A stretch of 64,000 nt of DNA from Ferruginibacter sp. Lineage in GTDB: Bacteria; Bacteroidota; Bacteroidia; Chitinophagales; Chitinophagaceae. A program made the translations under genes and the position numbers. Shown here in pieces: positions 40,549 to 44,974 of the stretch. A model generated the notes under the pieces. That model had not been told where the DNA came from. It did no database searches and worked only from the letters and a program-made list of their open reading frames with translations. Within the stretch, counting starts at the first letter, position 1, and the number at the start of each line of letters is the position of its first letter. Location: assembly GCA_013141435.1 (NCBI GenBank), contig JABFQZ010000020.1, positions 40,095 to 104,094 on the forward strand. The letters run 5' to 3'.

Positions 40549-41238
40549 TTATTCTTTCACACTAAATTTAAACCCAATGCCGTGTAAGTTTTCTATAACA
40601 ATGTTTTCATCTTTGCACAATATCTTTCTAAGTCGAGAAATAAATACATCTAAACTTCGTCCCATAAAATAATCATCGTTGCCCCAAAGTGTTTTTAATA
40701 TATCTTCTCTTTTCAAAACCTTTTGAGGGTTTTGTATAAATAGTTTTAGTAACTCGGCTTCACGTAGGGTAAGTGTAGCTTTTTCGTTTTCATAAATTAT
40801 TTCATAATTATTGGTATCAAATTGGTATTTGCCTACATGGTAAATTTTATTTTTACTTGTATTTTTTTTACTACGCTGCAAAAATATTTCTATTTTTAAA
40901 ACCAACTCTTCTATACTAAATGGCTTTACCAAATAATCGTCGGCACCAAGTTTTAGGCCTTTTATTTTGTCTTCTTTTAAGGTTTTTGCCGATAAAAATA
41001 TAATAGGTATTTCGTTGTTAAATTGTCTTATTACTTGAGCTATTTCAAAGCCATCTTTTTTTGGAACCATAATATCTAATATGCAAATATCATATTCTTG
41101 ACTTTCAAAATTATGTAATGCTGTTGCACCATCGGCAAAATGGTGCACTTGGTAATTGTTTATTTCCAAACTATCTTTTGTAAGGTAGGCAAGGGTTTCG
41201 TCGTCTTCTACATATAATACTTTGTATTGCTTAGTCAT
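40549..41238 (-). CDS. OmpR/PhoB-family response regulator (RprY-like)
   Basis: A 229-residue regulator. The receiver domain (about residues 1-120) has the acidic pair VEDDE, the phospho-acceptor Asp in DICILDIMVPKKDG (about residue 53), Ser in IIFLSA and Lys in YLVKPF. The trans_reg_C winged helix (about 130-228) has LTLREAELLKLFIQNPQKVLKREDIL and RSLDVFISRLRKIL. The gene overlaps the end of its kinase gene by 8 bases. It resembles RprY of Bacteroides. Direct repeats upstream of the operon may be its binding sites. Confidence 0.92.
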   Translation of the reverse strand: MTKQYKVLYVEDDETLAYLTKDSLEINNYQVHHFADGATALHNFESQEYDICILDIMVPKKDGFEIAQVIRQFNNEIPIIFLSAKTLKEDKIKGLKLGADDYLVKPFSIEELVLKIEIFLQRSKKNTSKNKIYHVGKYQFDTNNYEIIYENEKATLTLREAELLKLFIQNPQKVLKREDILKTLWGNDDYFMGRSLDVFISRLRKILCKDENIVIENLHGIGFKFSVKE

Positions 41239-42490
41239 GTGTTGGTATTAATATTTTTATGGTAGTACCTTCTTGTATTTTACTATGTAATGTAATATTC
41301 CAATTATGTTCTTTGCAAATTCTTTTTACATAAAAAAGCCCTAAGCCAAAGCCATTTACCTCATTACTTTTTATATTTTTTATTCTGTAAAATTTTTCAA
41401 ATATATGTTGTTGTTCTTTTATTGGTATTCCTATTCCATTATCAGTAAAAATTAATTGCACAAACTTTTTTTGCTTTTCTATCTTAATTAAAATAATCGG
41501 ATTTGTACTTGCATATTTTGCTGCATTATCTAATAAATTATAAACCAGGTTAGAAAAATGAAATTCATCGGCAAAAATAGATACATCAGCATTGTTATTT
41601 ATTTTTATAACTGCATTTGGGTATTTAAGTAAAATGTTATCTACCACTAATTGTACAGAATTTACAACATGTATACTAGTTTTTTGAAGGCTTATTTTAT
41701 TGTTATCAGCTTTTGCAAGGTTTAATATTTTTTCTACATGGTTGTTAAGTTTTACTGCTTGTTGGGTTATGAGTTCGGTATATTTTTTTAGTTTATCATT
41801 TAGTAAAATTGGCTCTTGCTTATCCAAAAAATTAGAGGCAATAAGTATAGAAGATATTGGTGTTTTAAACTCATGGGTCATGTTATTAATAAAATCATTT
41901 TGCAGCTCGGAGTATTTTTTTTGCTGTAAAATGGTAAAGGCAGAATATCCATACAGCATAAGTACAATGAGCATTACAAGCGAAAATATTATCCAAATAT
42001 GTAGTGCTTTGTATATGTATTTATCTAAATTAGGGAAATGTACGGCAAAATAATATGCCATTCCATTTTTTGCAAGCGCAAAGTTTGTTTTATTTTTTTT
42101 ACTGTTATTTTCTTCCGAAATGTATTTGCCATATTTCATACATTCTTTTGTACAGTCGTAATAACCGTATTCAAAATCGGCACCAATGTCAAATTTTTCA
42201 AATTCATTTTTTAGGTAATAATCTAAAGATGCTTCTTCAAATTTGCTATTTACATTTACAACATAATAATTATTGCTTTTTTTTTCGATAGGGTTTGTTT
42301 GTGGTAATGCAGTATTGCTTTCTACATTTAACTTGCCCGATACTTCTAATAAAGCAACATGTACTTTTTGGGCAAATTTTTTTTCTTCGTAGTTGTATGC
42401 TTGGCGTAGCAATAAAAATTGCAAAATCATAATGCCTACAATTACAATAAAGCCAAGCCACAGAGCAATATTTAGTTTTTTTATTTTCAT
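41231..42490 (-). CDS. Sensor histidine kinase (RprX-like)
   Basis: A membrane kinase of about 419 residues with two transmembrane helices (about residues 8-28 and 165-187) enclosing an extracytoplasmic domain of about 135 residues with two Cys (YDCTKEC). The cytoplasmic part has HisKA with the phospho-His in NNMTHEFKTPISSI, the N-box NLVYNLLDNAAKY, the G1 box TDNGIGIP and the G2 box GFGLGLFYVKRI. I use the ATG at 42490 rather than the TTG two codons earlier. It pairs with the response regulator downstream. Confidence 0.92.
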   Translation of the reverse strand: MKIKKLNIALWLGFIVIVGIMILQFLLLRQAYNYEEKKFAQKVHVALLEVSGKLNVESNTALPQTNPIEKKSNNYYVVNVNSKFEEASLDYYLKNEFEKFDIGADFEYGYYDCTKECMKYGKYISEENNSKKNKTNFALAKNGMAYYFAVHFPNLDKYIYKALHIWIIFSLVMLIVLMLYGYSAFTILQQKKYSELQNDFINNMTHEFKTPISSILIASNFLDKQEPILLNDKLKKYTELITQQAVKLNNHVEKILNLAKADNNKISLQKTSIHVVNSVQLVVDNILLKYPNAVIKINNNADVSIFADEFHFSNLVYNLLDNAAKYASTNPIILIKIEKQKKFVQLIFTDNGIGIPIKEQQHIFEKFYRIKNIKSNEVNGFGLGLFYVKRICKEHNWNITLHSKIQEGTTIKILIPTHD

Positions 42491-42544
42491 GTGCAATACA
42501 AGGTTACTATAAAATGTATTGAAATCTTAATGCATTTAATTTTC

Positions 42545-42598
42545 ATTAACAAACATTGGGCAATCGTTAACAACTATTCGGTTATCGTTAACAGCTAT
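42545..42598. promoter_or_regulatory. Three direct half-sites with 21-bp spacing
   Basis: ATTAACAAACATT (from 42545), GTTAACAACTATT (from 42566) and GTTAACAGCTATA (from 42587) repeat exactly every 21 bases. They lie in the divergent region between the kinase operon and the DUF1573 gene. The spacing of two helical turns puts all three on one face of the DNA, as expected for a regulator of the OmpR type binding in tandem. Confidence 0.55.
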
Positions 42599-42685
42599 AA
42601 AAACACTAGGGGTTTACTTTTACATTGTTAATTACTTGCAAGGTAAAACACAAATATTTTTTATACACTTTTAAAAACAACTATT

Positions 42686-43093
42686 ATGAAATTAGTAAAA
42701 TTATTTTCTCTTTTGGCTTTAGTTTTAACTTTTATGTCTTTTACTGCAAAAGATAATTTACCAAAAAGCAAATTTTATTCTGCGTATTTTAATAATTCTA
42801 TTTCTTGGAAAACAGATGTGATAGACTTAGGAGAAATACCAGTTGGAAAACCTGTAACTATTGAATTTGAATTTACGAACAATAGTAAAGCTGAAGTAAT
42901 TGTAACCGATGCAAAAGCTAGCTGCGGTTGTACCGTAGCTGATTATCCTAAGCAACCTATTGCTGCTGGCAAAACTGCAAAAATATCTGCTACATATAAT
43001 GCAGCAACTGCAGGTGCTTTTAGTAAAAATGTAACCGTAAGTTTTGCTAATGAAGAATCGAAAGTACTTAGTTTTAAAGGCACTGTAAAATAG
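42686..43093 (+). CDS. DUF1573 secreted protein
   Basis: A 135-residue protein with a signal peptide (MKLVKLFSLLALVLTFMSFTA). One DUF1573 Ig-like domain follows (about residues 45-135): DLGEIPVGKPVTIEFEFTNN, VTDAKASCGCTVADYPKQPI and GKTAKISATYNA. The SCGCT Cys pair is a hallmark of the domain. It is diverged from the kinase operon and shares the 21-bp repeat array with it, so it may be a target of that two-component system. Confidence 0.88.
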   Translation: MKLVKLFSLLALVLTFMSFTAKDNLPKSKFYSAYFNNSISWKTDVIDLGEIPVGKPVTIEFEFTNNSKAEVIVTDAKASCGCTVADYPKQPIAAGKTAKISATYNAATAGAFSKNVTVSFANEESKVLSFKGTVK

Positions 43094-44698: not shown

Positions 44699-44974
44699 AT
44701 GGCAACAGCAAAAAAAGCAGCTCCAAAAAAAGCTGCAGCAAAAAAAGCAGCACCTGCAAAGAAGGCAGCTCCTGCAAAAAAAGCAGCTCCTAAAAAAGCA
44801 GCACCAGTAAAAAAAGCAGCACCTGCTAAAAAAGCAGCACCAGTAAAAAAAGCAGCACCTGCTAAAAAAGCAGCTCCTGCAAAAAAAGCGGCTCCTAAAA
44901 AAGCAGCTCCTGCAAAAAAAGCAGCTCCTAAAAAAGCGGCTCCTGCAAAAAAAGCAGCTCCAAAAAAGAAATAA
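44699..44974 (+). CDS. Lys/Ala/Pro repeat protein resembling a histone H1 tail, 91 aa
   Basis: The whole protein is low-complexity: after MATAK it is built of KKAAP, AKKAAP and PKKAAP units to the C-terminal KKK. It would carry roughly 35-40 Lys and no acidic residue. Such tails occur in bacterial H1-like proteins and fused to HU; here it stands alone. It may bind DNA or RNA, but function is inferred only from composition. The minus-strand ORF of 106 residues over the same bases is a shadow. A strong terminator follows the gene. Confidence 0.75.
   Translation: MATAKKAAPKKAAAKKAAPAKKAAPAKKAAPKKAAPVKKAAPAKKAAPVKKAAPAKKAAPAKKAAPKKAAPAKKAAPKKAAPAKKAAPKKK
44719..44970 (+). repeat. Tandem 15-18-base coding repeats of the KAAP protein
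   Basis: The DNA is made of recurring blocks such as GCAGCTCCTGCAAAAAAA and GCAGCACCAGTAAAAAAA. Such an array can change length by slipped-strand replication and is hard to assemble from short reads. Confidence 0.7.

Follow-up and report, generated by a model that had tools for sequence, protein, structure and literature searches.

A tandem array of TTAACA-type half-sites, lying in the gap between a DUF1573 gene and a divergently transcribed kinase-regulator operon of Ferruginibacter sp., is probably an operator for the neighboring response regulator, which is of the OmpR/PhoB type, and likely serves to activate the DUF1573 gene, as judged from the sequence of the window (the whole 64,000-nucleotide stretch analyzed here) and from its counterparts in other genomes. 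The array runs in one orientation, is built of TTAACA or degenerate TT-starting half-sites in steps of 10 or 11 bp, and ends 26-27 bp upstream of a -7 box of the DUF1573 gene (Table 1). This supplies a candidate operator, a promoter geometry and a target for a branch of regulators for which we found no DNA site in the literature searched, and it would link DUF1573, a family of unknown function, with a two-component system dedicated to it. We found no description in the open-licence literature of DUF1573 being tied to a two-component operator.

Table 1. Features of the locus, in window coordinates (offsets of half-sites are counted from the last one)
Feature	Coordinates	Strand	Basis and remarks
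Regulator gene, OmpR/PhoB-type, RprY-like; likely operator binder	40549..41238	-	PF00072 + PF00486; NCBIfam best RprY; conserved GRSLDVFISRLRK helix
Sensor histidine kinase gene (HisKA + HATPase_c), first in operon	41231..42496	-	Pfam; orthologs found
Possible -7 box of kinase promoter, TAACCTTG	42499..42506	-	5/6; weak; similar boxes at kinase start in several orthologs
Half-site 1 (TTAACA)	42546..42551	+	-42; sequence, conserved in same-genus G039
Half-site 2, degenerate (TTGGGC)	42556..42561	+	-32; TT at -32/-31 invariant in 14/14 gaps
Half-site 3 (TTAACA)	42567..42572	+	-21; TTA invariant in 14/14 gaps
Half-site 4, degenerate (TTCGGT)	42577..42582	+	-11; TT at -11/-10 invariant in 14/14 gaps
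Half-site 5 (TTAACA)	42588..42593	+	0; TTAAC invariant in all 14 gaps; -7 box always 26-27 bp away
Predicted -7 box of DUF1573 promoter, TACTTTTA	42615..42622	+	5/6 of TAnnTTTG; predicted start near 42627
DUF1573 gene, exported protein, 135 aa, SCGCT motif; likely target	42686..43093	+	PF07610 1.7e-30

The array and its promoter geometry

The initial annotation had reported three ATTAAC/GTTAAC sites at exact 21-bp intervals, and these are borne out: the RTTAAC sequences start at 42545 (ATTAAC), 42566 (GTTAAC) and 42587 (GTTAAC), spaced by exactly 21 + 21 bp. When the gap was shuffled 200,000 times with dinucleotides preserved, a 21-bp triple arose in no shuffle and an equally spaced triple of any period in 13. 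Tandem Repeats Finder called a repeat of period 21 at 42546-42593, and the stretch from 42543 to 42605 reads tcATTAACAAACATTgggcaa / tcGTTAACAACTATTcggtta / tcGTTAACAGCTATAaaaaca. The length of 195 bases that had been given for the gap holds when it is counted from the kinase ATG (complement 42488-42490); counted from the upstream TTG at 42496, the length is 189 bases. On both strands of the 64-kb window, the triple in the gap is the sole equally spaced RTTAAC triple; elsewhere in the 3.06-Mb genome, apart from one isolated pair, RTTAAC spaced by exactly 21 bp is confined to low-complexity AATTAAC runs. Low-complexity AATTAAC/AATAAC runs (G000:C14:18435-18489, G000:C40:4559-4585 and G000:C1:94684-94710) are a confounder for TTAAC pattern searches. 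In an AT-rich genome with such runs elsewhere, the array might itself be a chance repeat or a product of low-complexity drift, a reading that the shuffles, the half-site register, the conservation and the association tests given below make scarcely credible.

The repeats had also been likened to the sites commonly bound by phosphorylated OmpR-type regulators. They do have the pattern of OmpR/PhoB-type tandem sites, but 21 bp is not the unit: every second half-site had been caught, and degenerate ones lie in between, at 42556 and 42577. When the 14 non-redundant gaps are aligned by their last TTAACA, TT is invariant at -32, -21, -11 and 0 in every one, so the biological unit is a half-site of ~10.5 bp, the 21-bp period corresponding to two of them. 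One-orientation direct repeats at 10-11 bp steps are thus present, as in a PhoB-type tandem (pho-box-like) operator. LytTR-type direct repeats, a candidate prompted by the 21-bp period, were dropped, the true step being ~10.5 bp and the partner an OmpR-type regulator.

The divergent layout of DUF1573 and kinase-regulator genes recurs in genomes of the same genus (G039, G028, G050 and G002), in another family of the order (G069), and in Flavobacterium and Cytophagales genomes. G039 carries the same 21-bp triple. In the majority of the other lineages, TTAACA is found at 0, 11 and 32, the site near 21-22 being weaker, and a TTAACA-type sequence takes the position of half-site 2. A lack of conservation in orthologous gaps had been named as an observation that would speak against the repeats, and we observed the opposite, the register being kept in 14 of 14 non-redundant gaps; the putative operator is conserved across many Bacteroidota lineages.

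The -7 element of Bacteroidota is TAnnTTTG, with its T at -12 (PMC6847099, PMC9723704). Counted from the first base of the last TTAACA, every one of the 14 non-redundant gaps has a match to it (5/6 or 6/6) at +26/+27, and no other offset has one in more than 2 of the 14; the array thus occupies the position at which an activator of the PhoB type would stand in for the -33 element of the DUF1573 promoter. The last half-site overlaps the -35/-33 element, and its distance from the -10/-7 element is constant, the arrangement of PhoB-type operators; in the window it spans roughly -39 to -34 with respect to the predicted start of DUF1573 transcription. Comparison of the window with G039 shows the operator and TTTACTTTT conserved and the spacer that separates them, equal in length, almost wholly changed, a pattern that reads as the footprint of two constrained elements whose spacing is set.

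It is from this geometry only that we infer activation rather than repression. The overlap of the last half-site with about -39 to -34 would also suit a regulator that represses DUF1573 by covering the -33 region; we consider this unlikely, as the site shows no convincing TTTG -33 element, and the tandem same-orientation sites of the array end at the -33 edge, an arrangement typical of activators such as PhoB. Under activation, phosphorylated regulator monomers would line up head-to-tail along one face of the DNA, with two of them in each 21 bp, and the promoter-proximal monomer at the -33 region would recruit RNA polymerase in a PhoB-like, class II manner, so that the bound array would switch on the DUF1573 gene.

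Association of the putative operator with the kinase-regulator operon and DUF1573

We built a score matrix from 14 gaps and applied it to the regions upstream of 59 DUF1573 genes. The results show the full operator at 12 of 19 DUF1573 genes with a divergent kinase and at 0 of 40 without one (Fisher P = 3.6e-8, computed with 41 controls, not 40). All 12 loci scoring at least 35 have a divergently adjacent kinase, whereas the 40 kinase-less genes score 5.4 or less; seven of these 12 loci lie outside the matrix training set, with scores of 35-51 against that maximum of 5.4. The other 7 of the 19 kinase-adjacent loci are without the full architecture, one scoring 12.8 and six falling within noise, with a half-site pair visible. 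Seen from the kinase side, scores of 18.9 or more (leave-one-out for matrix loci) are obtained at all 20 kinase loci that have a DUF1573 gene nearby, compared with 3 of 41 kinase loci without one that carry the array, suggesting that the operator tracks the regulator and the DUF1573 gene together and is not simply an autoregulatory site.

An array that is chiefly autoregulatory for the kinase-regulator operon, with DUF1573 as a bystander, would have precedents in Porphyromonas gingivalis RprY, whose binding to its own promoter was detected by EMSA (PMC3646045), and in Riemerella PhoP, which binds DNA upstream of its own operon (PMC9603813); moreover, one locus, L119, carries the array without DUF1573. 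The counts of 3/41 against 20/20 nevertheless render this reading very unlikely, as does the finding that four same-genus loci (L099, L100, L101 and L103), whose regulators are 59-64% identical, have lost both the DUF1573 gene and the array, and that the array keeps its fixed geometry relative to the -7 box of DUF1573 and not to the kinase side. The kinase ortholog of L101 (G004:C34:15438-16685) contains one in-frame TGA stop and is possibly a decaying gene or a misassembled one.

The bound array, whose likely target is the DUF1573 gene, is located ~50-100 bp before the start of the kinase gene and could influence the kinase-regulator operon as well. A -7-like box on the kinase side was found in none of the Flavobacterium orthologs. 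The initial annotation had proposed that the regulator controls itself, a claim for which the signs are weak, since the operator is missing from the majority of kinase operons that have no divergent DUF1573 gene. Its other proposal, that the regulator controls DUF1573, agrees with the operator being found at 12/19 genes with a divergent kinase and 0/40 others. Taken together, the conserved register, the -7 geometry, this association and the pattern search described below lend good support to the prediction that DUF1573 is under the control of the neighboring RprY-like regulator.

The regulator and the wider occurrence of the TTAACA box

The window regulator has the receiver and Trans_reg_C winged helix of an OmpR/PhoB-type response regulator (PF00072, 5.9e-28; PF00486, 1.2e-18). 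That it is RprY-like, as had been stated, is correct insofar as RprY is its best NCBIfam model, but its 253.6 bits lie under the cut-off of 370 of that equivalog (NF051850), and the genome also encodes L187, an RprY-like orphan regulator, which scores higher (298.7 bits) yet also below the cut-off. To the Bacteroidota PhoB model (NF053854), the window regulator scores 176 bits against a cut-off of 270. Four clear OmpR-type regulators are present in the genome. The recognition helix, GRSLDVFISRLRK, is nearly constant in the regulators of operator-bearing loci, and that of L187, GRSMDVYIAKLRK, is similar to it.

We searched 395 genomes of the class with the blind pattern TTAACAN{14,16}TTAACAN{20,21}TANNTTTG. 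It matched in 75 of the 395, with 2 matches in all for the reversed control, which makes the TTAACA array with its -7 box a strong searchable promoter signature in Bacteroidota. Nine of these sites stand directly upstream of DUF1573 genes, at distances of 44-181 bp, the genes having been identified independently by protein search. Among 30 pattern loci inspected, six precede DUF1573 genes, six stand beside another kinase type and four precede a DEAD-box helicase gene, and the remainder include sites before genes for a PstS-like phosphate-binding protein or porin-like proteins. Because the inspected loci adjoin such varied genes, the TTAACA box is probably common to several OmpR-type regulators of the phylum.

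Several of these loci deserve mention. The array with the same -7 geometry lies before a PstS-type phosphate-binding protein gene at L157 and before porin-like genes at L165 and L166, the L165 array being also beside a possible phosphate transporter gene (a fragment without Pfam match); these three loci suggest that a Pho box of this kind exists in Bacteroidota. A different kinase family (~480 aa, MNKxNIxxIT...) has a TTAACA array with ~10-11-bp steps in its divergent gap (L154-L156, L159, L160 and L171), and some of these arrays adjoin a gene for an exported protein, which in L155 carries a Por secretion tail. In one family, a DEAD-box RNA helicase gene lies behind the same promoter signature (L177, L178, L179 and L181).

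The operator could instead be bound by L187, or by the PhoB-like L184, with the adjacency of the kinase-regulator operon being incidental or reflecting cross-regulation. Arrays with the same -7 geometry at L157, L165, L166, L154-L160 and L171 are compatible with this, as are the similar recognition helix of L187, which could suit the same box, the same array at L119, whose regulator is closest to L187, and the TTTAACA sequence bound by Riemerella PhoP (PMC9603813). We nonetheless regard such binding as improbable, given that at DUF1573 genes the full operator occurs only beside a kinase operon of the window type (12/19 vs 0/40). Locality and the association tests favor the window's own regulator as the operator binder.

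The motif had been expected to lead to a wider regulon, an expectation that failed in the genome itself: 35 matches at up to 3 mismatches were found against 49 for the reversed control, with no enrichment, and a broad regulon is not visible there. The best match is the window site itself. One additional exact candidate, L167 (G000:C15:51675-51731), precedes a gene for a 461-aa protein without Pfam match, for which no homolog was found in eight congeners.

The DUF1573 protein and comparison with known systems

The protein exceeds the PF07610 gathering score (105.4 bits vs 26.1), and its match to the NCBIfam OS_HP2 (seleno)protein model is below the cut-off. As the DUF1573 family includes selenoprotein forms with a UGC motif (PMC9312934), and an SCGCT motif is present here, a thiol-redox role of the protein in the envelope is possible. 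More speculatively, and with appreciable doubt, the locus might represent a Bacteroidota-wide envelope-stress module, in which a dedicated RprY-like two-component system has as its principal conserved output one exported CGC-thiol DUF1573 protein, possibly feeding back on the periplasmic domain of the kinase. Farther along the window, at 44699-44974, an alanine/lysine-rich ORF with a 33-bp repeat (AAPAKKAAPKK...) resembles bacterial histone-H1-like tails.

The pho boxes of Escherichia coli PhoB and Bacillus subtilis PhoP, the latter TTAACA-like, are head-to-tail direct repeats of ~11 bp that abut or replace the -35/-33 element. The window array resembles them in its repeats and in its place at this element, and differs in having a Bacteroidota -7 box, in the degeneracy of alternate half-sites within the genus, and in not preceding a phosphate gene. 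The ArcA box of E. coli likewise consists of GTTAA-type direct repeats at ~11 bp, although regulator subfamily, phylum and promoter differ from those of the window. The motif of Riemerella anatipestifer PhoP has been likened to the ArcA box (PMC9603813). This PhoP is, like the window regulator, a Bacteroidota OmpR-type protein, and its DAP-seq motif has TTTAACA as its most conserved core; hundreds of peaks are reported for it, in contrast to the window regulator with no visible regulon, and the part of the report available mentions neither an array nor a -7 geometry nor DUF1573, all three of which are present in the window (PMC9603813). For RprY, we found no DNA motif in PMC3646045 or PMC6032018; the targets of RprY in Porphyromonas and Bacteroides are heat-shock chaperones and the sodium response, whereas the likely target in the window is a DUF1573 gene.
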